From Klenkia marina (lineage in GTDB: Bacteria > Actinomycetota > Actinomycetes > Mycobacteriales > Geodermatophilaceae), in contig NZ_FMUH01000006.1 of NCBI RefSeq assembly GCF_900101025.1, positions 124,001-188,000 on the forward strand: 64,000 nucleotides of DNA. Direction: 5' to 3'. The position numbers and the translations under genes are program-made. Of the stretch, positions 28,008 through 41,295 are shown piece by piece. How positions within the stretch are numbered: the first letter of the stretch is position 1; every line of letters begins with the position of its first letter. The notes under the pieces are model-generated. The model ran no database searches and was not told where the DNA came from. It was given only the letters and a program-made list of their open reading frames with translations.

Positions 28008-29402
28008 TCAGTGCTTCCAGCGCACCGCGCGGCAGACGGCCTCCGGGGAGGCGCCGTCGAACAGGGCGATCTCGCCCCGCCGGACGTCGGCCACCGTCGC
28101 CGACAGCTCCTCGCCGAAGGCCCCGGTGAGCACCTCGTCGGACTCGAAGGCCTGCACCGCCTCCGCCAGGGACGCGGGCAGCGGGCGGATGCCGGCCTCG
28201 CGGCGGCCCTCGTCGGTCAGCGAGGCGGGGTCGACGCCCACCGGGTCGGGCAGCCGCGCCCCCGCCCGCACCCCGGCCAGCCCCGCGGCCAGGCACCCGG
28301 CCATGAGCAGGTAGGGGTTGGCGGCCAGGTCGAGGCTCTTGACCTCGACGTTGGCCGAGGCCTGCCGGTTGCCGTCGGGGCCGGTGACGAACCGCAGCGC
28401 GGCCTCGCGGTTCTCCAGGCCCCACGCGGCGTAGGCGCCGGCCCAGTGCGAGGGCACCAGCCGCAGGTAGGAGGCGACCGAGGGCGCGCCGACGGCCAGC
28501 AGCCCGGGCAGGTGGGCCAGCAGCCCGGCGGTGAAGCCCTCGCCCTCCGGCGTCAGCCCGAAGGTGCCCTCGCCCCCGCTCATGAGGTTCTCCTCGCCCC
28601 GGTTCAGCGACAGGTGGAGGTGCCCGCCGTTGCCCACGCCGTCCGCGGTGACCTTGGGCGAGAACGACACCCGCAGCCCGTGCTGGGCCGACACCGCGGT
28701 GATGGTGGCACGCACCAGGAGGGCGGTGTCGGCCGCGGCCACCGGGTCCTGGGCGGCTACCGAGACCTCGAGCTGGCCGGCGGCGTACTCGGGGTGGAAC
28801 TGGTCGACCGCGACACCCTGCTCGGTGAGGGCGTCGAGCAGGTCGCGCCCGTAGTCGCTGACCTCGGCCAGCCGGGTCATGCCGTACGCCGGGCCGGACA
28901 GCGCGGGCACGAAGGCGTCGGCGTCCTCCGGCGTGCCGTCGGGGCGGGACACGACCCACTCGACCTCGAACGCGGCCCGCACGTGCAGGTCGCCCAGGTC
29001 CGACACCATCCGGCGCAGCAGCGAGCGGGAGCACTGCACGTGCGGCACCCCCGCCTGGGTGTACCGGTCCACCGGCGCCCACGCCCAGCCGGGCTGACCG
29101 GCCAGCACGGTGAGCCGGGCGAGGTCCGGGTGCAGTCGCAGGTCGCCGATCGCCGAGCCGGCGAACCGGCCGGCGACGATCGAGTCGTCGAGCAGGAAGC
29201 CGTCGAACACCGGGCTCATGCCCACGCCCCACTGCGCCGCCGAGGGCAGCTTGGCCAGCGGCACCGTCTTCACCCGGGTGATGCCCGAGGTGTCGACCCA
29301 GGGCAGGGCGACGGCGGTGACCCCGGCGTCCTCGAGCTCGGGCAGCAGGGCCTCGGCGGCCGAGCGGCGGGCGTCCCGGGTGGCGGTGTCGAGCTGGTCC
29401 AT
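28008..29402 (-). CDS. Glutamine-synthetase-like ligase
   Basis: A 464-residue member of the glutamine synthetase I superfamily. The glutamate- and ATP-binding landmarks are recognisable: AFEVEWVV in the first metal site, NGGHLHLSLNRG (the HxH loop) and ENREAALRFV with the later SANVEVKSLDLAANPYLLMAG. It lacks the adenylylation loop of true GlnA. Such paralogues ligate glutamate to amines such as ethanolamine, polyamines or isopropylamine. The ethanolamine operon 15 kb away makes gamma-glutamyl-amine chemistry worth considering, but the substrate is unknown. It is leftward after the IclR gene. Confidence 0.85.
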   Translation of the reverse strand: MDQLDTATRDARRSAAEALLPELEDAGVTAVALPWVDTSGITRVKTVPLAKLPSAAQWGVGMSPVFDGFLLDDSIVAGRFAGSAIGDLRLHPDLARLTVLAGQPGWAWAPVDRYTQAGVPHVQCSRSLLRRMVSDLGDLHVRAAFEVEWVVSRPDGTPEDADAFVPALSGPAYGMTRLAEVSDYGRDLLDALTEQGVAVDQFHPEYAAGQLEVSVAAQDPVAAADTALLVRATITAVSAQHGLRVSFSPKVTADGVGNGGHLHLSLNRGEENLMSGGEGTFGLTPEGEGFTAGLLAHLPGLLAVGAPSVASYLRLVPSHWAGAYAAWGLENREAALRFVTGPDGNRQASANVEVKSLDLAANPYLLMAGCLAAGLAGVRAGARLPDPVGVDPASLTDEGRREAGIRPLPASLAEAVQAFESDEVLTGAFGEELSATVADVRRGEIALFDGASPEAVCRAVRWKH

Positions 29403-29434
29403 GCCGGGAGTCTCACACCTGGGCGCCCGGGGCG

Positions 29435-30094
29435 TCAGAGATCGGCGGCGATCGCCCGGGCGACGGCCACCACGGCGGCGCCCAGCTCGGCCTCGTCGTC
29501 CCGATGCCCGGTCCAGACCACCGCGGCGGCCGCGGCGGCCCCGCGCACCGGCGCCGACAGCGAGCGGACCCCGGGGATGACCTCGCCCTCGCTGACCGCC
29601 CACCCCGTGGCCCGGGCGGTGCGCAGTTCGGGGCGGTCGTGCTCGGCGTCGGGGTCGGGCATGAGCAGCGCGAGCCCGGGGGCACCGCGGCCGATCGGGT
29701 GCCGGGTGCCCGGACGCCGGGTGACGTGGCTGGGCACGTCGCGGGGCTCGACGCTGGTGAGGGTGACGGCGTCGTCCCCGGCCCGGACGACGAGGAACCC
29801 GGTGCACCCGAACCGCTCGACCAGCGGGGCGAGCCGGGCGTTGGCCGCGGCCTGCAGGCTGGTGCGCACGCCGCGGGCCAGCACCGAGACGGTGAGCCCC
29901 AGTCCGAACCGGCCGGCGTCGTCGCGCTCGACGAAGCCGCGGTCCTCCAGCGTGCGCAGCAGCCGGTAGGTGATCGAGCGGTGCAGGTCCACCGCGGTGG
30001 CGATCTCCATGACCGGCCGGGGCGACCCGGTGGCCGCCAGGTGCTCCAGGATGCGCAGACCCCGGTCGAGGGTCTGGGACTGCGGCGCGGTCAC
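29435..30094 (-). CDS. IclR-family transcriptional regulator
   Basis: A 219-residue IclR-type regulator. The winged-helix N-terminus reads LDRGLRILEHLAATGSPRP, then DLHRSITYRLLRTLEDRGFV (about residues 10-50). A GAF-like effector domain follows, here shortened to about 140 residues. The GTG start has CATGCT 6 nt upstream (leaderless layout). It follows the MFS gene by 12 bp and lies beside the homogentisate genes, for which IclR regulators are typical. Control of the transporter and aromatic genes is likely; the ligand is probably an aromatic acid. Confidence 0.8.
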   Translation of the reverse strand: MTAPQSQTLDRGLRILEHLAATGSPRPVMEIATAVDLHRSITYRLLRTLEDRGFVERDDAGRFGLGLTVSVLARGVRTSLQAAANARLAPLVERFGCTGFLVVRAGDDAVTLTSVEPRDVPSHVTRRPGTRHPIGRGAPGLALLMPDPDAEHDRPELRTARATGWAVSEGEVIPGVRSLSAPVRGAAAAAAVVWTGHRDDEAELGAAVVAVARAIAADL

Positions 30095-30106: not shown

Positions 30107-31423
30107 TCAGTGGCCGTCCACACCCAGGTCGGCGCCGCGGGTCTCGCGGATCGCCGTGACCGCGGCGAAGGAGATCGCGGCCAGCACCATCATGTAGACG
30201 CCCACCGAGATGCCGGTCCCGGTCCGCTGCACGAGCAGCTCGCTGATCGCCGGTGTGAACGCCCCGCCGAGGATCGCGCCGAGGGCGTAGCCGATGGAGA
30301 CCCCCGAGTACCGGACGGCGACCGGGAACAGCTCGGCGTACATGGCCGACATCGGCCCGTAGGACAGCCCCAGCCCGATCGTGAGGACGACGACGCCCAG
30401 CCCGAAGGCCCAGATGTTCGCCGAGTCGACGAGCAGGAACATCGGGATCATCCAGACGAACACGAGCGCGTAGCCGATCTGGAAGGTGCGCACCCGGCCG
30501 ATGCGGTCGCTGAGCGCGCCGCCGTACAGGGTGAACACCAGCCAGGACGCCGAGGCCACCACGATCGCGGTGAGCACCGGGCCGCGGGCCAGGCCCAGGG
30601 TCTGGGTGCCGTAGCCGATGAAGTAGGCGATGACGAGGTAGCCGGCGGCGTTGTTGGCCACGAACACCAGCGCGGTCAGCACGACCTGCTTGGTGTTCGT
30701 GGCGAACAGGTCGCGCAGCGGGGCCGAGGACTCGCGCTTGCGCTCCTGCAGCTCGCGGAAGACCGGGCTCTCCTCGACGGAGCGGCGGATCAGGTACCCG
30801 ATGCCGATGAGCGCGATCGAGAGCAGGAACGGCACCCGCCAGCCCCACTCGAGGAACTGGTCGGGCGTGGTCACCGACGTCATGAGCAGCAGCACGCCGG
30901 TGGCCAGGATCAGCCCGAGCGGCACCCCGACGCCGGGGTAGGCGCCGAACAGCCCGCGCTTGGACAACGGCGCGTGCTCGACGGCCATCAGCGCGGCGCC
31001 ACCCCACTCGCCACCGGCGGAGAAGCCCTGCAGCACCCGCAGCACGACCAGGATCACCGGCGCGGCGACGCCGATCGAGGCGTAGGTGGGCAGCAGCCCG
31101 ATGAGCGCGGTCGAGCCGCCCATGAGCAGCAGGGTGAACACCAGCATCTTCTTGCGGCCCAGCCGGTCGCCGTAGCGGCCGGCGACGATCGCGCCCAGCG
31201 GTCGGAACAGGAAGCTGATGCCGATGGTGGCCAGCGACAGCACGGTGGCCAGCGCCTCGTTGCCCTCGCTCACCGGGGCCAGGAACAGCGGCGCGAGCAC
31301 GAGGGTCGCCGCCTGGGCGTAGATGAAGAAGTCGTACCACTCGATGGTGGTGCCGGCGAGGGTGCCGGCCAGGACCTTGCGTTCCTCGCGGGTGGTCGGG
31401 CGGGGGTCGGACGTCGTCGTCAC
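30107..31423 (-). CDS. MFS transporter of the metabolite:H+ symporter type
   Basis: A 438-residue 12-helix major facilitator of the ShiA/ProP-like metabolite symporter group. The conserved cytoplasmic loop reads GRYGDRLGRKKML, preceded by TIEWYDFFIYAQAATLVL, and the second half has YGGALSDRIGR. The GTG start has a GAGGAG site. It lies 65 bp after fahA on the same strand and 12 bp before the IclR gene, so it is most likely the uptake system for the aromatic acid degraded by the upstream genes, though the substrate is unproven. Confidence 0.85.
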   Translation of the reverse strand: MTTTSDPRPTTREERKVLAGTLAGTTIEWYDFFIYAQAATLVLAPLFLAPVSEGNEALATVLSLATIGISFLFRPLGAIVAGRYGDRLGRKKMLVFTLLLMGGSTALIGLLPTYASIGVAAPVILVVLRVLQGFSAGGEWGGAALMAVEHAPLSKRGLFGAYPGVGVPLGLILATGVLLLMTSVTTPDQFLEWGWRVPFLLSIALIGIGYLIRRSVEESPVFRELQERKRESSAPLRDLFATNTKQVVLTALVFVANNAAGYLVIAYFIGYGTQTLGLARGPVLTAIVVASASWLVFTLYGGALSDRIGRVRTFQIGYALVFVWMIPMFLLVDSANIWAFGLGVVVLTIGLGLSYGPMSAMYAELFPVAVRYSGVSIGYALGAILGGAFTPAISELLVQRTGTGISVGVYMMVLAAISFAAVTAIRETRGADLGVDGH

Positions 31424-31488: not shown

Positions 31489-32667
31489 TCAGCGGGCGGG
31501 CAGGACGGTGCCGGTCACCTCGCCGAGGCCGATGCGGCCGCCGCCGGTGCCGGGGGCCGTGGCGGTGAGGGTCACCGTGTCGCCGTCCTCGAGGAACGAG
31601 CGGGTGGAGCCGTCGGCGAGCGTCAGCGGCTCGGCCCCGCCCCAGGACAGCTCGATGAACGAGCCCCGCTGGTCGCGACCTGGGCCCGACACGGTGCCGG
31701 AGGCGAAGAGGTCGCCGGTGCGCAGGGTGGCCCCGTTGACCGTCATGTGCGCCAGCTGCTGGGCCGGCGTCCAGTACATCTGCGCGAACGGCGGGCTGCT
31801 GACGTGCTCGCCGTTGAGGTGCACCTCGAGGGCGAGGTCCAGGCCCCAGCGCAGGCCGGCGTCGTCGAGGTAGGGCAGGACGGCGGGCTCCCGCGCCGGT
31901 GGGTCGACCCGGGCGGCCTCCAGCGCGGCCAGCGGCACCACCCACGGCGACACCGAGGTCAGGAACGACTTGCCCAGGAACGGGCCCAGCGGCACGTACT
32001 CCCAGGCCTGCAGGTCGCGGGAGGACCAGTCGTTGACCAGGCAGACCCCGAACACGTGCTCGGCGAACGCGTCGACGGTGACCGGGCCGTCGGAGGGCAC
32101 GCCGACGACGAACCCGACCTCGGCCTCGATGTCCAGCCGCCGGCTGGGCCCGAAGGTGGGCAGGTCGTCCGCCGGCGCCTTCCGCTGCCCGCTCGGCCGG
32201 ACGACGTCGGTGCCCGAGACGGCCACGGTGCCGGCGCGGCCGTGGTACCCGATCGGCAGGTGCTTCCAGTTCGGGGTCAGCGGCGGGGAGTCGGGCCGGA
32301 ACATGCACCCGATGTTCTCCGCGTGGTGCTGGGAGCTGTAGAAGTCGACGTAGTCGGCCACGGTGAACGGCAGGTGCATCGTGACGGCGTCCCGGGGGAG
32401 CAGGTGCGGCTCGACCGCCGCGGCGTCCTCGGTCACCCACCGCACGAGCTGCGCCCGGACGGCGGCCCACGCCTGCGGCCCCCGGGCGAGGAAGGCGTCG
32501 AGGCTGCCCGTGGCGTGCACGCCGTCGCCGGTGGCCGCGGCCAGGTCGAGCACGTGGTCGCCGATCGCCACCCCCGTGCGCGGTGTGCTGCCCGGGGTGG
32601 AGAACACCCCGTACGGCAGGTTGTCGGCGCCGAAGAGCGTGCCCTCGGGCAGGTCGAGCGGGTTCAT
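31489..32667 (-). CDS. fahA: Fumarylacetoacetase
   Basis: A 392-residue fumarylacetoacetate hydrolase, last enzyme of homogentisate catabolism, giving fumarate and acetoacetate. N-terminal DLPEGTLFGADNLPYGVFS is typical, as are YVDFYSSQHHAENIGCMFRP (catalytic His and metal site), DIEAEVGFVVG, NDWSSRDLQAWEY and LGPFLGKSF. The start overlaps the upstream unassigned gene by ATGA, so the two are coupled. There is no recognisable zeta-class glutathione transferase (maleylacetoacetate isomerase) beside it. Confidence 0.95.
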   Translation of the reverse strand: MNPLDLPEGTLFGADNLPYGVFSTPGSTPRTGVAIGDHVLDLAAATGDGVHATGSLDAFLARGPQAWAAVRAQLVRWVTEDAAAVEPHLLPRDAVTMHLPFTVADYVDFYSSQHHAENIGCMFRPDSPPLTPNWKHLPIGYHGRAGTVAVSGTDVVRPSGQRKAPADDLPTFGPSRRLDIEAEVGFVVGVPSDGPVTVDAFAEHVFGVCLVNDWSSRDLQAWEYVPLGPFLGKSFLTSVSPWVVPLAALEAARVDPPAREPAVLPYLDDAGLRWGLDLALEVHLNGEHVSSPPFAQMYWTPAQQLAHMTVNGATLRTGDLFASGTVSGPGRDQRGSFIELSWGGAEPLTLADGSTRSFLEDGDTVTLTATAPGTGGGRIGLGEVTGTVLPAR

Positions 32668-33560
32668 GCGGGGATCCGATCGGGTGCGGGGAGGAGGCCG
32701 AGGGCGCGCAGGTCGCCGGCGGGCTCGGTGACGCTGCAGGTGCCGAAGGAGGTGAAGGCGGCGCGGGCGCGGGGGAGGTCGGCGGCACGCAGCCCCGCGA
32801 CCACCCGCTCGGCGTCGTGCTCGCGCAGCCACGCCTCGGGGTCGCCGCCGGTGGCCGCGGCGTGCGCGGCCAGCAGCACGGTGAGGAACCCGTGGTGGGC
32901 GAAGCCGGTGGCCGGGTCGGTGTGCGGCAGGGCGGCGTGCAGGCCGGCGGTGCACTTGAACGGCACGCCGCGCTGCGCGCAGGCGGTGATGGTGCCGGCC
33001 AGCTCCGCCGCCGACGGGAAGAGGTCGGCGCGCAGGCCGCCGGTGCGCAGCTTGGCCCGCGTGCCCGTCGCGGCGAGGGCGTCCAGGAGGTCGTCGCGCG
33101 CCGCCGTCCGGGGCAGCTCGACGAACACGGGGACGTCGGCCGGCACCCCGTCGAGGGCTCGCTCGGGGTCCGGGTGTCGGGCGCCCCGGGCCGTACGGCC
33201 CCACTGGGCGGCCTCGGTCACCCCGGGCACCTCGACGGCGGCCAGGCGCAGGCCGGCGACGGCGGCGACGCGGGAGACCGCGGCCGGCACGTCGGGCTGC
33301 GCGGCGATCACCGAGACGGCGAGCCTGCCGCCCCCGAGCCTGCCGCCCCCGAGCCCGCCGTCCCCGAGCCCGTCGTCCCCGAGCCCGTCGTCCTGCAGGA
33401 CGTGGGCCAGCTCGTCGAGGCGGGCGGTGGGCACCACGAACGGCCCGACCAGGTCCCCGAGCTCGGCGACCAGCCGGGCGTGCGCCGGCACCGCCACCGC
33501 CATCGGGGCGTCGCCGGGCGGGAACACCGCCGCGTCGTCGAGGAACCCCGCGAACGTCAC
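32664..33560 (-). CDS. Unassigned protein between hmgA and fahA, candidate isomerase
   Basis: A 298-residue protein that I cannot place in a named family. It begins TFAGFLDDAAVFPPGDAP, continues with repeated beta-alpha-like segments (FVVPTARLDEL, LAVSVIAAQPDV, VFVELPRTAARDDLLDAL, AKLRTGGL, ACAQRGVPFKCTAGLHAAL and HHGFLTVLLAA), and looks like a small TIM barrel with late Lys-Leu-Arg and Lys-Cys-Thr strand ends. It overlaps hmgA (GTGA) and fahA (ATGA), so all three are translated together. Homogentisate catabolism needs a maleylacetoacetate isomerase between these two steps; none is visible. The protein may fill this role without glutathione; this is inferred only from position. An in-frame 15-bp repeat lies inside it. 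Confidence 0.7.
   Translation of the reverse strand: MTFAGFLDDAAVFPPGDAPMAVAVPAHARLVAELGDLVGPFVVPTARLDELAHVLQDDGLGDDGLGDGGLGGGRLGGGRLAVSVIAAQPDVPAAVSRVAAVAGLRLAAVEVPGVTEAAQWGRTARGARHPDPERALDGVPADVPVFVELPRTAARDDLLDALAATGTRAKLRTGGLRADLFPSAAELAGTITACAQRGVPFKCTAGLHAALPHTDPATGFAHHGFLTVLLAAHAAATGGDPEAWLREHDAERVVAGLRAADLPRARAAFTSFGTCSVTEPAGDLRALGLLPAPDRIPA
33321..33395. repeat. 15-bp in-frame minisatellite in the unassigned gene
   Basis: Five tandem 15-bp units (33321-33395) encode the pentapeptide series DDGLG, DDGLG, DGGLG, GGRLG, GGRL in the leftward protein. Because the unit is a multiple of three, copy number can vary without a frameshift. Confidence 0.9.
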
Positions 33561-34747
33561 GACGCGGGCCCGCGGCCCGACCAGGTCCAGGCGTAGTGCC
33601 CGTCGTCGGAGGCGGTGCCGGCCTCGCCGAGCGACAACGGCCGGAAGGTGTCGACCATGACCGCGAGCTCGTCGAAGAACTCGGCACCCAGCGAGCCCTC
33701 GATGGCCGAGGGCTGCGGGCCGTGGCTGTGCCCGCCGGGGTGCAACGAGATCGAGCCCTTGCCGATGCCCGAGCCCTTGCGCGCCTCGTAGTCGCCGTCG
33801 ACGTAGAACATGACCTCGTCGCTGTCGACGTTCGAGTGGTAGTAGGGCACCGGGATCGCCAGCGGGTGGTAGTCGACCTTGCGCGGCACGAAGTTGCAGA
33901 TCACGAAGCCCCCGCCCTCGAACACCTGGTGCACCGGCGGTGGCTGGTGCACCCGCCCGGTGATCGGTTCGAAGTCGCTGATGTTGAACGCGTAGGGGTA
34001 GAGGCAGCCGTCCCAGCCGACCACGTCGAACGGGTGCTCGGGCACCACGTGCACCGTGCCGGCCAGCCCGCCGGGCCCGTCGCCGCGGTGCTTGACGTAC
34101 ACCTCGACGTCGGTGCCCTCGACGACCAGCGGCTCGGTGGGTCCGCGCAGGTCGCGCTCGCAGTAGGGCGCGTGCTCGAGCAGCTGCCCGTACTTCGACA
34201 GGTACCGCTTCGGCGGGGCGATGTGGCTGTTCGCCTCGACCGCGTAGGTGCGCAGTTCGCCGTCGGGCACCCAGCGGTGCGTGGTCGCCCGGGGGATCAC
34301 GACGTAGTCGCCGGTGCCGACGGTCAGCGCGCCGAACACGGTCTCGACCACGGCCGAGCCCCGCTCGACGTAGACGCACTCGTCGCCGGTGGCGTTGCGG
34401 TAGTACGGGCTCGGCGACGAGGCGACCGAGTAGTGGATGCGGACGTCGGCGTTGCCGAGCACCAGCCGCCGGCCGAGCACCGGGTCGGCGTCGGTGGCGA
34501 AGGCGAGGTCGTGCAGCTTCAGGTGCCGGGGGAGCAGCGGGGCGTTCGGGGTGAGCGCCTGATCGGGCAGCTCCCAGGTGCGGGCGTCGACGAGCGAGCT
34601 GGGGACGCCGGAGTGGTACAGCAGCGAGGAGTCGGACGAGAAGCCCTCCTCGCCCATCAGCTCCTCGCGGTACAGCGCGCCCTCGGGGGTGCGGTGCTGC
34701 GTGTGCCGCTTGGGCGGGACGCTGCCCACCTGCCGGTAGAACGCCAT
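33557..34747 (-). CDS. hmgA: Homogentisate 1,2-dioxygenase
   Basis: A 396-residue ring-opening dioxygenase that converts homogentisate to maleylacetoacetate with a non-haem iron. The iron site is in HPFDVVGWDG and the later DEVMFYVDGDYEARKG, with HPGGHSHGPQPS carrying further ligands, and PRKVDYHPLAIPVPYYHSN is characteristic. It abuts the FAD hydroxylase stop and overlaps the next gene by GTGA. No 4-hydroxyphenylpyruvate dioxygenase gene is in the window, so homogentisate may come from the FAD enzyme here or from an hppD gene elsewhere. Confidence 0.95.
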   Translation of the reverse strand: MAFYRQVGSVPPKRHTQHRTPEGALYREELMGEEGFSSDSSLLYHSGVPSSLVDARTWELPDQALTPNAPLLPRHLKLHDLAFATDADPVLGRRLVLGNADVRIHYSVASSPSPYYRNATGDECVYVERGSAVVETVFGALTVGTGDYVVIPRATTHRWVPDGELRTYAVEANSHIAPPKRYLSKYGQLLEHAPYCERDLRGPTEPLVVEGTDVEVYVKHRGDGPGGLAGTVHVVPEHPFDVVGWDGCLYPYAFNISDFEPITGRVHQPPPVHQVFEGGGFVICNFVPRKVDYHPLAIPVPYYHSNVDSDEVMFYVDGDYEARKGSGIGKGSISLHPGGHSHGPQPSAIEGSLGAEFFDELAVMVDTFRPLSLGEAGTASDDGHYAWTWSGRGPAS

Positions 34748-36379
34748 CTAGGAGAACTCCAATCGGGTGGTGGCCGACCTCGCTGCAGGGGCCCGGCCCG
34801 AGCCTGCGAGGGCGGGGGTGCAGTGGGGTCCTTCTGCCACGGCGGGGGTCACGATGCGGGCGAGGGCGGCCGGCAGGTCGGCCGGGTCGGTGAGGACGGC
34901 GGCGACGTGGGCGTCCGGGCGCAGCAGCCACAGCTCGTCGGGGCGTGCCCCCAGCGCCGTGGCCAGCAGACCGCCGGCGTCCAGGTCGTCGATGCGGTGC
35001 AGCGCGACGCCGTCGGTCCGGGGCAGGTCGACGTCCCGACCCACCAGCACCGTCAGGCCCTCCCGGGCCAGCTGGCGCAGCCGGGTCAGCTCGGGCCGAC
35101 CGGCGACCACCACCGGGACGTCGGGGGCCAGCACACCGGGCGCGGGCTCGGGGACGTCGCCGCGCGCGGGCCGGCCGGCGAACGGTCGCCGCGGGTCGGG
35201 GGTGGTGAGCGGGGAGTCGACGTACCAGAACGGCTCGGCCAGCCGGCCGCTGTCGACCTGGGCGCGGGCCGCCGGGTCGGTGCCGGCGCGCTCGAGGACC
35301 TCGAGCCGGTGCGCGGCCTCCTCGGGGCTGCCGGGCACCAGGAACCGCATCGTGGCGCCGGTGACGTCGAGGTTCTCCACCGCTGCGGCGTGCCGCTCGG
35401 CCGAGTAGCTCTCCAGCAGTTCGTCGCCGGCCAGCCCGCGCCGCACGAAGGCGATCTTCCAGGCGGCGTTCTCGGCGTCCAGCACCCCGGAGTTCAGCCC
35501 GCGGGCGCCGAACGGCGAGACCAGGTGCGCGGCATCGCCGGCGACCAGCACCCGGCCCACGCGCATGCGGTCCACTACCCGGGAGTGGAACCGGTAGACC
35601 GACTTCCAGACCACTTCGTAGGGCCGGTCGCCGACGACCATCCGGATGCGGGCGTCCAGACCGCCGGAGGCCTCCTCGGCGTCGAGGTCGAAACTGGGCG
35701 GCACCTGCCAGTCGATGCGGAAGGTGGAGTCGGGGCAGGGGTGGATGAGCACCTGCCGGCCGGGGTTCCACTGCGGGTCGAAGTAGAACCTGCGCTCGGT
35801 CTCCCACCCGGGGAGCTCGGTGCGGATGTCGCAGATGAGGAACTGGTCGCCGAAGGTGCGTCCCTCGAACGTCAGGCCCAGCTCCCGGCGCAGCAGCTCG
35901 GCCCGGGCGCCCCCGCACACGACGGCGTGGCTGCCGCGGTGCGTGCTGCCGTCGGTGCAGCGCAGGGTGACGCCGTCCTCGTCCTGGTCGATGCCGGTGA
36001 CCTGCGAGCCCCAGCGCACCTCGACCAGCGGCTGCGCGGCGATCGCGTCGTCCAGCAGCTCCTCGGTGCGGCACTGGCTGACGTTGACGAACGGCGGGAA
36101 CGGCGAGGCGCCGCGGTCGACGAAGTCGAAGGAGAACAGCTCGTGGTCGCGGTGGAAGGTGCGCGCCGTCGTCCAGGTGACCCCGTGCGGGGCCACCTGC
36201 ACCCCGACGGAGTCCCACACGTCGAGCACGTCGCGCTGCTGGCAGATCGCCTTGGACCCGACCAGGTCGCGCTCGGACCGGGCGTCGAGGACGACGACCG
36301 GCAACCCCCACCGGGCCAGCAGCAGGGCGGTGGTCTGCCCCACCGGCCCCGCGCCGACGACGAGAACCGGTGCGGTCAT
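34748..36379 (-). CDS. FAD-dependent aromatic hydroxylase (MhpA/PheA-type)
   Basis: A 543-residue class A flavoprotein monooxygenase. The Rossmann FAD motif VLVVGAGPVGQTTALLLARWG opens the protein, followed by the ribityl site RVLVAGDAAHLVSPFGARG. A C-terminal thioredoxin-like region of about 150 residues is seen in phenol- and hydroxyphenylpropionate-type hydroxylases. It sits directly upstream of hmgA, so an attractive role is to make homogentisate, for example from 3-hydroxyphenylacetate, but another ring hydroxylation is equally possible. Its start overlaps the upstream gene by ATGA. ATG 36379 is the only start that fits this coupling. Confidence 0.85.
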   Translation of the reverse strand: MTAPVLVVGAGPVGQTTALLLARWGLPVVVLDARSERDLVGSKAICQQRDVLDVWDSVGVQVAPHGVTWTTARTFHRDHELFSFDFVDRGASPFPPFVNVSQCRTEELLDDAIAAQPLVEVRWGSQVTGIDQDEDGVTLRCTDGSTHRGSHAVVCGGARAELLRRELGLTFEGRTFGDQFLICDIRTELPGWETERRFYFDPQWNPGRQVLIHPCPDSTFRIDWQVPPSFDLDAEEASGGLDARIRMVVGDRPYEVVWKSVYRFHSRVVDRMRVGRVLVAGDAAHLVSPFGARGLNSGVLDAENAAWKIAFVRRGLAGDELLESYSAERHAAAVENLDVTGATMRFLVPGSPEEAAHRLEVLERAGTDPAARAQVDSGRLAEPFWYVDSPLTTPDPRRPFAGRPARGDVPEPAPGVLAPDVPVVVAGRPELTRLRQLAREGLTVLVGRDVDLPRTDGVALHRIDDLDAGGLLATALGARPDELWLLRPDAHVAAVLTDPADLPAALARIVTPAVAEGPHCTPALAGSGRAPAARSATTRLEFS

Positions 36380-37335
36380 GACTGCAGCTGGTCCCACACC
36401 TGGCGGTCGCGCTCGGCGGTCCAGATGACCGGGCGCTCGACGCCCTCGAACTCGTCCCACAGCCGCGAGACGTCGAAGGGCAGGCAGTGCTCGAAGATCG
36501 GCCAGTGCCCGAACTTCGGGGCCAGCGCGGCGTGGGTGGCGTCGAAGGCGTCCTTGAGGGTGCCGCCCGAGCGGTGCGCGGTGCCGACGGTGTCGTGCAT
36601 CGTGGTGAGGAAGGCGCGGGTCTGCTCGACCGCGGCGTCGACCTCGTCGCGGCCACGGGCGATCGCGCCGCGGCCGCCGATGAGCTGCTGGGCGCCGAAG
36701 GCCTTGACCCGGTCGAGCGTGCCGGCCGCCCAGTCGAAGTGGAACGCGTCGCCGGTGTAGAGCGCGGCCTGGCTCTCGACCAGGTCGCCGGCGAAGAGGA
36801 TCTCGTGCTTCGGGAGCCAGGCCACGATGTCGCCCTCGGTGTGGCCGCGGCCGACGTGCTCGAGCACCAGCTCGCCGCGGTCGCCGCCCAGCTCGATGGT
36901 CAACCTGTCGCGGAAGGTCATCGTGGGCCAGGTCAGGCCGGGGATCGACTCGGGCTCCTCGAACAGCCGCGGCATGCGGCCGTACTCGCTCTCCCAGTCC
37001 TGCTGGCCGCGCTCGGCGATGAGCCCCTTCGTCTGCTCGCTGCTCACGATGATCTCCGCGTCGAACGCGGAGGCCCCGAGCACCCGGACGGCGTGGTAGT
37101 GGCTGAGCACCAGGTAGCGCACCGGCTTGTCGGTGTGCTCGCGGAGCTTGGCCAGCCAGCGGCGGGCGGCGACCGGGGTGGCCAGCGCCTCGAAGCAGAC
37201 CAGGAAGTCCTCGCCCTCGACCGCGCCGAGGTTGGGGTCGCCCTCGGCGGTCAGCGCGTAGACGCCGTCGGCGAGGACCTCGAGGGTCTGCTCCTTCGCG
37301 CCGAGGTCGGCCGACGATGCGAACGGCTTGGCCAC
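36376..37335 (-). CDS. Metallo-beta-lactamase-fold hydrolase with altered metal motif
   Basis: A 319-residue protein with the MBL fold. The second half keeps the usual GRGHTEGDIVAW (His) and LFAGDLVE (Asp) motifs. The first motif, normally HxHxDH, reads HYHAVRVLG, so the Asp-His pair is replaced. This form recurs in MBL proteins beside aromatic catabolic genes, so it is probably a real subfamily, not a broken enzyme. The GTG start has GGAGG, and a paired dyad lies upstream. It is the first gene of the catabolic unit and overlaps the FAD hydroxylase. Substrate unknown, probably a thioester or lactone in the pathway. Confidence 0.8.
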   Translation of the reverse strand: MAKPFASSADLGAKEQTLEVLADGVYALTAEGDPNLGAVEGEDFLVCFEALATPVAARRWLAKLREHTDKPVRYLVLSHYHAVRVLGASAFDAEIIVSSEQTKGLIAERGQQDWESEYGRMPRLFEEPESIPGLTWPTMTFRDRLTIELGGDRGELVLEHVGRGHTEGDIVAWLPKHEILFAGDLVESQAALYTGDAFHFDWAAGTLDRVKAFGAQQLIGGRGAIARGRDEVDAAVEQTRAFLTTMHDTVGTAHRSGGTLKDAFDATHAALAPKFGHWPIFEHCLPFDVSRLWDEFEGVERPVIWTAERDRQVWDQLQS

Positions 37336-37345
37336 AGTGCCTCCA

Positions 37346-37382
37346 TGCTCGTAATGCGAGCAACGCGCTCGCCTGTCGAGCA
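37346..37382. promoter_or_regulatory. Paired dyad upstream of the catabolic operon
   Basis: TGCTCG-N5-CGAGCA (37346-37362) is followed by a near copy CGCTCG-N5-CGAGCA (37366-37382), with centres 20 bp apart. It lies in the 82 bp between the Lrp-type gene and the metallo-beta-lactamase-fold gene. It may bind the Lrp-type or IclR-type regulator encoded nearby; which one is unknown. Confidence 0.6.
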
Positions 37383-37417
37383 CGACCGTAGCTGGTGGGT
37401 GAGCCGGGCCACAACCC

Positions 37418-37888
37418 TCAGTCGGCGCGCTCGTGCAGCAGCGGGGCGATGCGCAGCGGCACCACCTCGACGAGCGCGATCGAGGTGCTGGCCCGCTCGA
37501 CGCCCGGGGCGGCGAGCACCAGCTCGGTGATCCGGTAGAGGTCGGCGGTGTCGACGGCGACCACCCGGGCCAGCAGGTCGGCGTCACCGGTGGTGGCCAG
37601 CACCTCGACCACCTCGGGGATCGCGGCCAGGGCTGCCGCGGTCCCGGCCTGGGCGTCGCGCTGGGTCACCGACAGCGTCATGAACGCCAGCAGGGGGCGG
37701 CCGAGCGCGCCTGCGTCGACCCGGCGACTGTGCGCCTGCAGGGTGCCGTCGTCCTCCAGGCGGCGCAGCCGGGCGTGCACGGTGTTGCGGGCCAGGCCCA
37801 GCCGGGTGGCCAGCGCCATGGTCGAGGCCTGGGGGTCGTCGTCGAGGGCCAGCAGGATGCGGGCGTCGGTGGCGTCGAGGGTGTGCAC
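37418..37888 (-). CDS. Lrp/AsnC-family transcriptional regulator
   Basis: A 156-residue Lrp/AsnC regulator. The N-terminal helix-turn-helix (LDATDARILLALDDDPQASTMALATRLGLARNTVHARLRRLEDDG) is followed by a RAM domain (AFMTLSVTQRD, then VEVLATTGDADLLARVVA, ending LVEVVPLRI) that binds amino acids or keto acids. GTG 37888 starts it. It is divergent from the keto acid decarboxylase gene, with a perfect 17-bp palindrome between them, so regulation of that enzyme by an amino acid is likely. It lies upstream of, and on the same strand as, the catabolic unit. Confidence 0.85.
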   Translation of the reverse strand: MHTLDATDARILLALDDDPQASTMALATRLGLARNTVHARLRRLEDDGTLQAHSRRVDAGALGRPLLAFMTLSVTQRDAQAGTAAALAAIPEVVEVLATTGDADLLARVVAVDTADLYRITELVLAAPGVERASTSIALVEVVPLRIAPLLHERAD

Positions 37889-37937
37889 GGTGCGCAGCTC
37901 GCTCCCTGGTCGGCGGGTCCACGGTGGGCAGATCGCT

Positions 37938-37954
37938 CATCGTGTCGCACGATG
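37938..37954. promoter_or_regulatory. Palindromic operator between Lrp and decarboxylase genes
   Basis: CATCGTG-TCG-CACGATG is a perfect 17-bp palindrome in the 103-bp divergent spacer. Lrp-type proteins commonly bind 15-17 bp dyads such as this. It lies 37 bp before the decarboxylase ATG. Confidence 0.65.
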
Positions 37955-37991
37955 GTTGCGCAGATGGTCGGCGGCGTCGACCGTTCTCCTC

Positions 37992-39683
37992 ATGACTGCC
38001 CTGGACGAGCGACCCGCTGCCGGTTCCACGCCGACCACCACGGTCTCCGTGGCCGGCTACCTCGCGACCCGGCTGCGGCAGCTGGGCGTGGACCACCTGT
38101 TCGGCGTCCCGGGCGACTTCAACCTCGACCTGCTCGACGGGCTCGCCGACGGTGGCCCCGCCTGGGTGGGCTCGCCCAACGAGCTCGGCGCCGGGTACGC
38201 CGCCGACGCCTACGCCCGGGTGCGTGGCCTGGGCGTCGTCGTCACCACCTACGGCGTCGGTGAGCTGTCGGTCATCAACGCCCTCGCCGGCGCCTACGCC
38301 GAGGACGTGCCGCTCGTCCAGGTCGTCGGCGCCCCGCGCCGGGCGGCCGTGCAGGCCGGTGCCCTGGTGCACCACACGCTGGCCGACGGCGAGTTCGAGC
38401 ACTTCTCCCGCGCCGCCGCCGAGGTCACCATGGCCGCCGAGACCCTCACCGCCGACCGCGCCGCCGAGCAGATCGACGCCGTGCTGCTGGCCGCCGTCAC
38501 GCACCGGAAGCCGGGCTACCTCGCCGTCCCGCAGGACCTCGCGCTCGCCGAGATCGACGCCGCACCGCTGGCCCAGCGGCTGGTGCCGGTCTCCGACCCG
38601 GCCGCGCTGGCCGTCTTCGAGGAGCAGCTGACCGCGACGCTGGCCCAGGCGCAGCGTCCGGTGCTGCTGGTCGGCCAGCTGGTGCCGCGCTTCGGCCTGG
38701 CCGCCGAGCTGGCCGACCTCGCCGCGCGGCACGGCGTCGCCGTGGTCACCCAGGTGTCGGCCCGCGGCGTGCTCGACGCCGACCACCCCTGCTCCGCCGG
38801 GGACTACGCCGGCACGATGCTCGGCGGCCCGGCGATCGACGTGGTGGCCGGCGCCGACGTCGTGGTCCACGTGGGCACCGTGCTCACCGCCGAGCTGACC
38901 GGCTTCGGCTCGCACCGCCGCCCCGACGCCGGCACCCCGTTCCTGGCCGCGGCCACCGCCGGGTTCGGCGACGAGCCCGGCGGTCGGGTGCTGCTCCCCG
39001 ACGCGCTCGCGGCGCTGGACCGCGCGCTCGCCGGCCGGGTGGGCCCGCGGTTCGTCCGCCCCGCCGCGTCCACCCCCGCCCCTGTGCCGACGACGGACGG
39101 CGAGCTCACCCAGGCGCAGCTGTGGCACGCCCTCGCCGAGCAGCTGCCCGCCGGCACGGCGCTGCTGGCCGACACCGGCACCGCCTGGTTCGGCGCGCTC
39201 GACCTGCCCCTGCCCGCCGGCACCACCCTGTCGGGCCAGCCGATCTGGAGCTCGATCGGCTACGCGCTGCCCGCGGTGCTCGGGCAGGGGATGGCCGACG
39301 CCCACCGCCGTCCGGTGCTGGTGATCGGCGACGGCGCGGCGCAGATGACCGTGCAGGAGCTCTCCACCATCGCCGCCCGCGGGCTGACCCCGGTCGTGCT
39401 GCTCATCGACAACGCCGGCTACACGATCGAGCGGGCGCTGCAGTCACCGCGTGCGGCCTACAACGACGTGGCCGCCTGGGACTGGGGGATGCTCCTCGCC
39501 GGCTTCACCGGGGGCCGGGCCGCCTACGCCGAGGCGACCACCGGTGCCGAGCTGACCGCCGCCCTGGAGGCCGCGTTCGCCGACACCGGGCGGATGCACG
39601 TCGTGCGGGCGGTGCTCGACGCCGACGACACCCCGCCGATGATCGACGCCCTCGCCCGCCTGGCCACGGCCGCGAAGGGCTGA
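37992..39683 (+). CDS. ipdC: TPP-dependent 2-keto acid decarboxylase (indolepyruvate/phenylpyruvate type)
   Basis: A 563-residue thiamine diphosphate-dependent decarboxylase that converts 2-keto acids to aldehydes, most likely indolepyruvate, phenylpyruvate or branched-chain substrates. HLFGVPGDFNLDLLDG and the catalytic Glu in PNELGAGYAADAYAR are typical. The HHTLADGEFEHF segment marks the decarboxylase subgroup. The cofactor motif is GDGAAQMTVQELSTIAARG, ending LIDNAGYTIE. ATG 37992 starts it. It faces the Lrp gene. Together with the homogentisate genes it suggests amino acid and aromatic turnover; ipdC is tentative, and a phenylpyruvate or branched-chain enzyme is possible. Confidence 0.85.
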   Translation: MTALDERPAAGSTPTTTVSVAGYLATRLRQLGVDHLFGVPGDFNLDLLDGLADGGPAWVGSPNELGAGYAADAYARVRGLGVVVTTYGVGELSVINALAGAYAEDVPLVQVVGAPRRAAVQAGALVHHTLADGEFEHFSRAAAEVTMAAETLTADRAAEQIDAVLLAAVTHRKPGYLAVPQDLALAEIDAAPLAQRLVPVSDPAALAVFEEQLTATLAQAQRPVLLVGQLVPRFGLAAELADLAARHGVAVVTQVSARGVLDADHPCSAGDYAGTMLGGPAIDVVAGADVVVHVGTVLTAELTGFGSHRRPDAGTPFLAAATAGFGDEPGGRVLLPDALAALDRALAGRVGPRFVRPAASTPAPVPTTDGELTQAQLWHALAEQLPAGTALLADTGTAWFGALDLPLPAGTTLSGQPIWSSIGYALPAVLGQGMADAHRRPVLVIGDGAAQMTVQELSTIAARGLTPVVLLIDNAGYTIERALQSPRAAYNDVAAWDWGMLLAGFTGGRAAYAEATTGAELTAALEAAFADTGRMHVVRAVLDADDTPPMIDALARLATAAKG

Positions 39684-39684
39684 G

Positions 39685-39702
39685 CGTCACGGCTGTGTGA
39701 CG
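39685..39702. terminator. Small hairpin after the decarboxylase gene
   Basis: CGTCAC and GTGACG (39685-39690 and 39697-39702) form a 6-bp stem with a 6-nt loop directly after the stop codon. It is weaker than the other hairpins here. Confidence 0.45.
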
Positions 39703-39795
39703 GCTGCGCGGCGGACCCGCGCACCTCTTCCGCCCGGGGCCGACGACCCGCACACTCCCGTTGCCTGGTGCAACGTCGTGCGAGGAGTGCAGCGA

Positions 39796-41295
39796 ATGGC
39801 CGTTCCGGTGGAGTCGACGGGCGGCCTGCGCCGCTCGCTGTCGGTGTGGCAGGCCATCGGCCTGTCCGTGGCGCTCATGGCGCCGTCGATGGCGGCCAAC
39901 ATCAACCCCCAGGCCACGGCCGGCACGGTCGGCCGGGCGGTGCCGCTGGCCTTCCTGCTCGCCGCGGTCGGTGTGCTGCTGGTGGCCTACGGGTTCGTGC
40001 GGCTGTGCCAGCACTTCCAGCACGCCGGCTCGGTGTACGCCTTCGTCGGCGCCACCCTCGGCCCGCGCGCCGGGCTGTTCTCCGGCTTCGGGTTGCTGGG
40101 CACCTACTGCTTCTACGGCGTGGTCACCGCCTCGGCCACCGGCATCTTCGGGACGGCGTTCCTGCAGGAGGTCGGCATCTGGCCGAACCCGCCGGCGTGG
40201 GGACCCTTCGTGCTGGTCGCCCTGGCGCTGGTGTGCGCCTTCCTGCTCACCGTCGTCCCGGCCAAGCGCGGCACCAGCGTGCTGCTCACGGTCGAGGGCG
40301 TCACCGTGGCACTGATCCTGGTGATCGTGGCCGTCGTGCTGGTCCGGCTGCTCGGCGGCTCCACGCCGGACGAGGGGACCTTCGGCGGCGGGTCGTTCAC
40401 CTTCGACGTCTTCACCGTCGCGCCGGGCACCGACCTCTCGGCGGTGTTCCTGGGCGTGGTGTTCGGGTTCCTGTCCTTCGCCGGGTTCGAGGCCGCGGCG
40501 ACACTGGGGGAGGAGGCCCGCAACCCGCGCCGGGACATCCCCCGCGCCATCCTCGGGACGGCGCTGTTCGGCGGCGTGTACTTCGTGGTGGTCACCGCGG
40601 TCGAGATGATGGCCTTCGGCACCGACGACGCCGGGGTGGCCGCGTTCGCCGCCTCGCCGTCGCTGCTGGGCGACATCGGCACCGCCTACATCGGCTCCTG
40701 GATCGGCGACGTCATCACCCTGGGTGCGGCGATCAGCGCCTTCGGCTGCTGCCTGGCCTGCGTGGTCGGCGCCTCGCGGCTGGTCTTCGCCTTCGCCCGC
40801 GACACCGCTCCGGCCGGCCGTTCGGCATCGGGCCTGGCCGCGGTCAACGGGGAGGGCGTGCCGGCCCGGGCCGCCCTCGCCTCGGTCGTCGTGATGGGGC
40901 TGATCGTGCTGGTGAGCGCGCTGGTGTTCGGCGCCGAGGCCGGCGACACGTTCTTCTGGTCGGGCACGATCGGCACGCTGATCCTGCTCGTGGCCTACGT
41001 GCTCACCACGGTCGGGGCGATCCGCCTGGTGTTCGTGCAGCGCCGGATGCCGCACGTGCCGATGTGGCAGGTGGTCGTCCCGGTCGCGGCGCTGGTGGTG
41101 CTCGGCTACACGATCGTGCGCAACGTCGTCCCGTACCCGGCCTACGCCGACGGGGCGCCGTTCTGGTTCCCGGTGGTGGCCGGGGTGTGGCTGCTGGCCG
41201 GTCTGGTCGTCGTCCTGGCGGTGCCGGCGGTCGCGCGACGGGCCGGCCAGGCGCTGATGGCCGCCGAGCTGGGCGACCGGCAGCCGGTTCGGTAG
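39796..41295 (+). CDS. APC-superfamily amino acid permease
   Basis: A 499-residue amino acid/polyamine transporter with 12 to 14 predicted helices. The N-terminal SLSVWQAIGLSVALMAPSMA opens the first helix and LSFAGFEAAATLGEEARNP is the typical sixth-helix region, followed by IPRAILGTALFGG. ATG 39796 has GAGGAG at 8 nt. It follows the keto acid decarboxylase with a small hairpin between, so it may be co-regulated but could be a separate unit. The substrate is an amino acid or amine; which one is unknown. Its stop codon is the beginning of a large palindromic hairpin. Confidence 0.85.
   Translation: MAVPVESTGGLRRSLSVWQAIGLSVALMAPSMAANINPQATAGTVGRAVPLAFLLAAVGVLLVAYGFVRLCQHFQHAGSVYAFVGATLGPRAGLFSGFGLLGTYCFYGVVTASATGIFGTAFLQEVGIWPNPPAWGPFVLVALALVCAFLLTVVPAKRGTSVLLTVEGVTVALILVIVAVVLVRLLGGSTPDEGTFGGGSFTFDVFTVAPGTDLSAVFLGVVFGFLSFAGFEAAATLGEEARNPRRDIPRAILGTALFGGVYFVVVTAVEMMAFGTDDAGVAAFAASPSLLGDIGTAYIGSWIGDVITLGAAISAFGCCLACVVGASRLVFAFARDTAPAGRSASGLAAVNGEGVPARAALASVVVMGLIVLVSALVFGAEAGDTFFWSGTIGTLILLVAYVLTTVGAIRLVFVQRRMPHVPMWQVVVPVAALVVLGYTIVRNVVPYPAYADGAPFWFPVVAGVWLLAGLVVVLAVPAVARRAGQALMAAELGDRQPVR

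Follow-up and report, generated by a model that had tools for sequence, protein, structure and literature searches.

The usual maleylacetoacetate isomerase, MaiA/GSTZ1, is a zeta-class glutathione transferase (GST) and is represented by the curated equivalog model TIGR01262. Actinobacteria generally lack glutathione, and Actinomycetota make mycothiol. We have analysed a stretch of 64,000 nucleotides from the actinobacterium Klenkia marina (contig NZ_FMUH01000006.1, positions 124,001 to 188,000; the whole stretch is called the window below), in which an unnamed gene for a protein of 298 residues lies between a gene resembling homogentisate 1,2-dioxygenase (HGD) and fahA, the gene for fumarylacetoacetase (FAH). 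The gene order, the association with FAH, the lack of a recognisable maiA, the predicted fold and the conserved residues at its barrel mouth together suggest that the product of this gene is probably a cis-trans isomerase of maleylacetoacetate that is not a glutathione transferase; of this, only the reaction with its chemistry is inferred.

For the sister gentisate pathway, a study of Rhodococcus ruber Chol-4, a strain that grows on homogentisate, describes the use of a mycothiol-dependent maleylpyruvate isomerase (PMC6498646). The legend in that paper comparing the gene clusters of R. ruber and R. jostii RHA1 names hmgA and hmgB and no hmgC; its text speaks of hmgABC. The HmgA and HmgB proteins were detected in R. 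globerulus on phenylalanine or 2-hydroxyphenylacetate (PMC11889516), and homogentisate dioxygenase is reported as up on lignin in R. opacus (PMC6662401). A legend on tyrosine catabolism in Streptomyces albidoflavus includes an enzyme of the mycothiol-dependent maleylpyruvate isomerase family (PMC11012174), which is a rival assignment for that host. A Bacillus study states that no isomerase gene was identifiable and calls the fate of maleylacetoacetate unclear (PMC4457819). Among the papers listed in searches of the open-access literature, none described a TIM-barrel or glutathione-independent maleylacetoacetate isomerase, subscription journals being mostly outside the search.

The candidate gene and its predicted fold

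The features at the centre of the locus are as follows.

31489 to 32667, minus strand: fumarylacetoacetase fahA, 392 residues; TIGR01266 at 433.4 bits, cut-off 375.3; PF01557 and PF09298
32664 to 33560, minus strand: unnamed TIM-barrel protein, proposed maleylacetoacetate isomerase, 298 residues; barrel-mouth residues D8, E110, E148, K170, R172, K202, H208, H223 and C275 conserved
33320 to 33393, minus strand: 15-bp tandem repeat, 4.9 copies, a low-complexity insert inside the candidate gene; block-mean pLDDT 53-64
33557 to 34747, minus strand: short-type homogentisate 1,2-dioxygenase-like protein, 396 residues; TIGR01015 at 63.5 bits, cut-off 510.75; PF20510 and PF04209 over the gathering score

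The candidate was read as an open frame of 298 codons from a GTG start. The start shares four bases (GTGA) with the TGA stop of the HGD-like gene, and its own TGA stop shares four (ATGA) with the ATG of fahA at 32667. The frame is coding and not a chance opening, because homologues with open frames (17 aligned, 39-67% identity) occupy the same genomic position in many genomes. Scans of the protein against Pfam and NCBIfam returned 0 families each: the domains of mycothiol-dependent maleylpyruvate isomerase (MDMPI) were not recognised, no Pfam match to the maleate isomerase or hydratase families was obtained, and the candidate did not match TIGR01262. Among 62 family members scanned against the same two collections, weak stray matches were confined to one or two members each, with no maiA and no MDMPI model among them. 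A sequence search of the PDB with the candidate gave no credible relative (best E 0.17).

AlphaFold2, run with 62 sequences, folded the window protein into eight strands in beta/alpha order, a TIM barrel (pLDDT 90.4, pTM 0.89), and a run with 34 sequences gave a TIM barrel for the R. jostii homologue, which is without the repeat insert (pLDDT 96.2, pTM 0.93). The initial annotation had described an unrecognised TIM-barrel-like gene with stop-start overlaps on both sides and had asked for a structure prediction; the overlaps, the empty family scans and the barrel in both models agree with that description. The fold of glutathione transferases (thioredoxin-like plus helical) was seen in neither model. 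Foldseek placed generic TIM barrels among the best matches of the window model (dihydropteroate synthase, transaldolase, aldolase 1mzh and CitE) and archaeal Schiff-base fructose-bisphosphate (FBP) aldolases at the top for the R. jostii model, together with aldo-keto reductases. TM-scores were at most 0.60 among the matches listed for both models.

Conservation was counted over 118 distinct homologues. R172 and D8 are invariant, K202 is kept in 117, C275, K170, E110, E148 and H208 each in 116, and H223 in 115; an Asn at position 227, where the window protein has Thr, is likewise kept in 116. The model puts K170 in strand 168-172, K202 in strand 201-204 and C275 immediately behind strand 269-274, a predicted placement that fits the face on which TIM barrels usually carry their active site.

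The tandem-repeat insert is rich in Gly, Asp and Leu and falls in a region that is empty in most of the 17 aligned sequences, two of which (L024 and L027) carry an unrelated insert at the same site. It probably arose by slippage, in a loop that tolerates expansion.

The HGD-like protein is 26-27% identical to two canonical HGDs in the alignment. Its His304, Glu311 and His342 are unchanged and align with the His, Glu and His of canonical HGD that we take to be the iron ligands. The earlier label hmgA is to be corrected as to type, since a score so far below the TIGR01015 cut-off marks a distant, short-type protein. A second hmgA elsewhere in the genome was considered and rejected, the short type of the window being the sole match to the HGD model.

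Association with FAH and absence of maiA

We have used a sample of 296 genomes from one phylum, the window's own included, plus one cyanobacterial plasmid. FAH was present in full or nearly full length in 41 genomes (35 over the cut-off and six at 263-359 bits, three of the six matches beginning at model position 60 to 113). The candidate family was sought by an alignment search that scored eight candidates per genome. It was found in 20 of the 296 genomes, namely in 18 of 41 with FAH versus 2 of 255 without (Fisher p 1.2e-15), and with the window's own genome left out the figures were 17 of 40 versus 2 of 255 (p 7.6e-15). The two matches in FAH-less genomes are a fragment at a contig edge (G376) and a marginal match (G148, E 8.8e-4). 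Where family and FAH occur together, the two genes stand side by side in 17 of 18 genomes.

A scan of contigs returned at least 584 homologous stretches, and the best 80 were kept as named loci; since these alone were kept, their taxon range is that of the closest relatives. All are from Actinomycetota, including Rhodococcus, Amycolatopsis, Nocardioides, Geodermatophilus and some Streptomyces. FAH is adjacent in 73/80, in every case on the same strand, no more than 139 bases off and with a median overlap of four bases, and an HGD-like gene in 67/80, on the same strand in 61 and the opposite strand in six. Each of the seven named genomes with a copy not beside FAH holds a full-length FAH elsewhere (five over the cut-off). 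Among relatives of the window the family was found in 50 of 146 genomes, and 30 loci drawn from these relatives, the window included, had FAH in 30/30 and an HGD-like gene in 28/30 within 1.5-kb flanks. The sets of 30 and 80 loci overlap (G011:C12 and L032, for example, are contigs of one and the same length, 717567) and are therefore not independent.

The TIGR01262 model found no maiA in the window's own genome, whose assembly is 99.97% complete, so that the isomerase which the initial annotation had presumed missing was indeed not found elsewhere by the curated model. In the phylum sample, likewise, none of the 41 FAH genomes has maiA over the cut-off, and the middle step in the breakdown of homogentisate (from tyrosine, phenylalanine or hydroxyphenylacetate) is thus without a recognised gene there. 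Weak maiA-like matches occurred in three of the 41 (at most 58 bits, cut-off 171), two of which are family-bearing. In the named family-bearing genomes, where the search covered 50 of the 80 loci, the count over the cut-off was 0/50. In a control set of 14 well-known genomes maiA was over the cut-off in one and gave any match in three.

The partnership is kept with either kind of dioxygenase. A canonical HGD over the cut-off is present in 8 of the 18 family-bearing FAH genomes of the phylum sample, and in one of them (G225) canonical HGD, the family gene and FAH follow each other in a row. HPPD (hydroxyphenylpyruvate dioxygenase) lies in the flanks of 14/80 named loci, the query for this search being taken from L040 (416.7 bits on the HPPD model).

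Plasmids carry the family as well. The gene is annotated as a hypothetical protein in 15 of 17 plasmid records, and two have no annotation at that place; the gene neighbourhood was examined in five of the 17. One Streptomyces plasmid holds HGD, the family gene, fahA and CoA transferase A and B in one run, a ready module from homogentisate to acetoacetyl-CoA, and in a second Streptomyces plasmid the family gene is paired with fahA. R. rhodochrous pNit and a Pseudonocardia plasmid each combine HGD (annotated as a cupin in pNit), the family gene and fahA. In the cyanobacterium Kovacikia minuta, one plasmid has HPPD (432.8 bits) and FAH (532 bits), both over their cut-offs, with a short HGD-like gene, a family gene and, alongside, an acetoacetate-CoA-ligase-like gene below its cut-off; the family protein is 29% identical and keeps the same conserved Cys and Lys. 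In view of the loci with canonical and with short HGD, together with the Kovacikia minuta plasmid, the partnership of the family with FAH crosses phyla and both dioxygenase types.

The proposed reaction and its alternatives

On this genomic evidence, which is strong, the gene is the best candidate for the missing isomerase step. In the proposed pathway the short HGD-like dioxygenase would open homogentisate to maleylacetoacetate, the TIM-barrel protein would convert this to fumarylacetoacetate, and fahA would cleave the latter to fumarate and acetoacetate. On strands 6 and 7, the residues K170, R172 and K202 may bind the carboxylates and polarise the carbonyl at C4; alternatively, one of the lysines might form a Schiff base in the manner of class I aldolases. 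Following strand 8 directly, the near-invariant C275 would add to the C2=C3 bond, the adduct would turn about what is then a single bond, and the thiol would leave, so that C275, as part of the protein, would take the role of glutathione in MaiA. The fuller proposal, in which an undescribed TIM-barrel family of Actinomycetota, reaching into Cyanobacteria, isomerises maleylacetoacetate with its own cysteine and lysines and is a glutathione-free, non-homologous replacement of MaiA/GSTZ1, we regard as evenly balanced between true and false.

Several observations weigh against the isomerase assignment. Neither the family nor maiA over the cut-off was present in 23 of the 41 FAH genomes, and a profile search confined to the surroundings of FAH retrieved no family member in these 23. 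HGD-like and FAH genes stand close together without a family gene in seven loci (L134, L135, L136, L148, L150, L155 and L156), and four of these (L136, L150, L155 and L156) have HPPD as well, in genomes without maiA over the cut-off; because HPPD, HGD-like and FAH genes are clustered in these four, an apparently complete cluster can do without the candidate gene. Two family-bearing genomes have weak maiA-like matches (G258 at 50 and G406 at 58 bits), and R. jostii has one of 59.7 bits, also below the cut-off of 171. The family gene of G382 follows a flavin hydroxylase, away from HGD and from FAH, which is on a different contig. Proposed catalytic residues are gone from two members that do stand beside FAH, L159 being without C275 and K170 and L173 without C275, K170 and K202. 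Finally, the candidate has no detectable homology to any isomerase, and its structural matches are generic TIM barrels with low TM-scores.

The initial annotation had called the gene the best candidate for the missing enzyme and had proposed checking its co-occurrence with hmgA and fahA in genomes lacking maiA. The interpretation is supported in part: maiA is absent by its curated model, the family is strongly enriched among FAH genomes (18/41 vs 2/255), lies nearly always directly beside FAH and accompanies both HGD types, but the 23 FAH genomes with neither gene and the two divergent members without the Cys and Lys weigh against its being necessary.

The distribution of these 23 genomes was examined in a tree built from 73 FAH sequences, of which family-bearing genomes supplied 50 and family-lacking ones 23 (midpoint root for drawing only). 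Family-bearing genomes occur in both deep groups, and the tree has 10 label changes, at least eight of them forced by the starred branches, versus a shuffled mean of 19.8. Eleven negatives of one group, f18, form a single clade, and the 23 negatives therefore represent some ten events. In the FAH tree f18 stands next to Kitasatospora and Streptacidiphilus, and for this reason it is probably Streptomyces. Our reading is that the family is of old standing beside FAH and has been lost or replaced on several occasions; equally, the step may need no dedicated enzyme in the family-lacking bacteria. The 11 f18 genomes (L137-L147, L179-L189) have canonical HGD and FAH at separate places, and are without maiA over the cut-off and without the family.

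Clustering of the neighbours in 43 loci (23 FAH regions from family-lacking genomes and 20 HGD regions, 16 of them family-lacking) gave no new candidate for a replacement isomerase beside HGD or FAH. The recurrent clusters other than HGD and FAH were mainly within f18 loci or consisted of general-looking genes, and one cluster of four loci (L150, L153, L155 and L156) is the HPPD locus.

Among the alternatives, the one that survives best is that the protein does another job bound to FAH (aldolase-like or decarboxylase-like, clean-up of a by-product or of acetoacetate, or stabilisation of FAH), isomerisation being spontaneous or carried out by FAH. The weak structural matches to aldolases, transaldolase and CitE point this way, as do the FAH genomes that do without the family, the tighter link of the family with FAH than with HGD (73/80 vs 67/80 named loci) and seven loci with the gene and FAH but no HGD-like match in the flanks (L053, L054, L057, L071, L076, L085 and L089). 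However, the textbook conversion of homogentisate to fumarate and acetoacetate needs no aldol or decarboxylation step, and conservation of the barrel-mouth residues over 118 members favours catalysis over a structural role. We consider this explanation unlikely.

Still less probable is that FAH cleaves maleylacetoacetate directly to maleate and acetoacetate, after which the TIM-barrel protein would act on maleate, as a cis-trans isomerase yielding fumarate or as a hydratase; isomerisation would then come after, not before, C-C cleavage. A maleylacetoacetate hydrolase yielding acetoacetate and maleic acid is cited for some Bacillus species in PMC4457819, and the 23 genomes with FAH but neither the family nor maiA over the cut-off would accord with such a reaction. 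On the other hand, the window FAH passes the fumarylacetoacetase equivalog cut-off, and the candidate, as noted above, has no Pfam match to maleate isomerases or hydratases. A different FAH class in the family-lacking genomes was not supported: FAHs of the two genome groups are about equally close to the window FAH (median identity 61.9% in family-bearing and 60.4% in family-lacking genomes), so there is no sign of a separate hydrolase class. The four clustered loci with HPPD mentioned above (L136, L150, L155 and L156) are good places to seek another isomerase or direct cleavage of maleylacetoacetate.

Equally improbable is an isomerase that needs a low-molecular-weight thiol, mycothiol or another, as in the gentisate pathway, for although all named loci are from Actinomycetota, generally known as mycothiol makers, the candidate has no Pfam or NCBIfam similarity to the mycothiol-dependent maleylpyruvate isomerase family, and a homologue with the same Cys and Lys belongs to a gene cluster of this type in a cyanobacterium, a group not known to make mycothiol.

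Neighbouring genes and comparison with known systems

The genes on either side of the central three are listed below.

28008 to 29807: glutamine-synthetase-like protein, most like gamma-glutamylputrescine synthetase (305 bits; cut-off of 650 not reached), close to the IclR and symporter genes
29435 to 30094, minus strand: IclR-type regulator; PcaR/BhcR-like matches below the cut-off; homologue in 29/80 named loci
30107 to 31423, minus strand: major facilitator superfamily metabolite/H+ symporter; TIGR00883 at 392.2 bits, below the cut-off of 443.45
34748 to 36472, minus strand: flavin adenine dinucleotide (FAD)-dependent aromatic hydroxylase, possible homogentisate maker (open frame; true start probably slightly inside); NF006002 at 445.1 bits, cut-off 416
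36376 to 37530, minus strand: metallo-beta-lactamase-fold hydrolase (open frame); PF00753
37418 to 37888, minus strand: Lrp/AsnC-type regulator; PF01037

Tyrosine, named as a growth substrate in the initial annotation, was not borne out as the feedstock, as no HPPD in the window's genome reached the cut-off of 277 bits (the best match scored 39.1). Homogentisate here therefore probably comes from another aromatic acid, and we infer that the flavin hydroxylase would make it from a hydroxyphenylacetate and not from hydroxyphenylpyruvate. Relatives of this hydroxylase with at least 60% identity are found in 13/80 named loci, and weaker ones (32-38%) in four more. The metallo-beta-lactamase-fold gene accompanies it in the same 13 loci and is weakly like the SoxH-related quinoprotein relay hydrolases. 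In G382 the family member (L162) stands directly after genes for a metallo-beta-lactamase-fold protein and a flavin hydroxylase. Its 12-kb stretch gave no match to HGD-like proteins or FAH, whose genes are together on another contig (L161).

Divergent from the hydroxylase, hydrolase and Lrp genes are a gene for a thiamine diphosphate-dependent decarboxylase, most like the indolepyruvate decarboxylases (421 bits; cut-off of 946 not reached), and one for an amino acid permease. Flavin hydroxylase, keto-acid decarboxylase-like enzyme and permease thus cluster within 34748-41295, and together they may lead from aromatic amino acids to homogentisate without HPPD. The glutamine-synthetase-like gene may perhaps stand for amine use feeding the same pathway. 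None of eight other genomes of the window's genus (G001-G008, one of them 73% complete) carries the candidate gene, and the homogentisate cluster therefore looks accessory in this genus.

The family offers a testable gene for the isomerase gap in Rhodococcus, Amycolatopsis, Nocardioides, Geodermatophilus and some Streptomyces. If the assignment is true, it adds a cis-trans isomerase on a TIM barrel that is free of a thiol cofactor, and it gives a function to a family of at least 584 homologous stretches without a Pfam or NCBIfam model.

Four known systems are close enough for comparison. With class I aldolases of the DeoC or archaeal FBP aldolase type the candidate shares, in its predicted structure, the TIM barrel and a conserved Lys on each of strands 6 and 7, the same strands on which DeoC-type enzymes keep theirs (DERA K167 and K201). 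It differs from them in its low TM-scores, in the extra, near-invariant Cys275 and in the lack of profile similarity to DeoC. Kinship with DeoC was accordingly rejected (an hhalign comparison with 20 DeoC sequences gave a probability of 0.2% and E 0.27), the only alignment obtained, weak and not significant, being one that pairs K170 and K202 with two DeoC lysines; dihydropteroate synthase was likewise rejected for want of profile similarity. Maleate cis-trans isomerase, of the Asp/Glu racemase superfamily, is cofactor-free, is thought to use an enzyme cysteine and has a fold other than that of the candidate, which differs also in its single near-invariant Cys and in having no Pfam match. The mycothiol-dependent maleylpyruvate isomerase is an analogue in that it, too, isomerises a ring-cleavage product from cis to trans in bacteria that lack glutathione, but it acts on maleylpyruvate, has no Pfam or NCBIfam similarity to the candidate and is not known to fold as a TIM barrel. 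From MaiA/GSTZ1, lastly, the candidate differs in both sequence and fold, being a predicted TIM barrel outside TIGR01262, and it resembles MaiA/GSTZ1 in the reaction proposed for it and in its place in the pathway between HGD and FAH.

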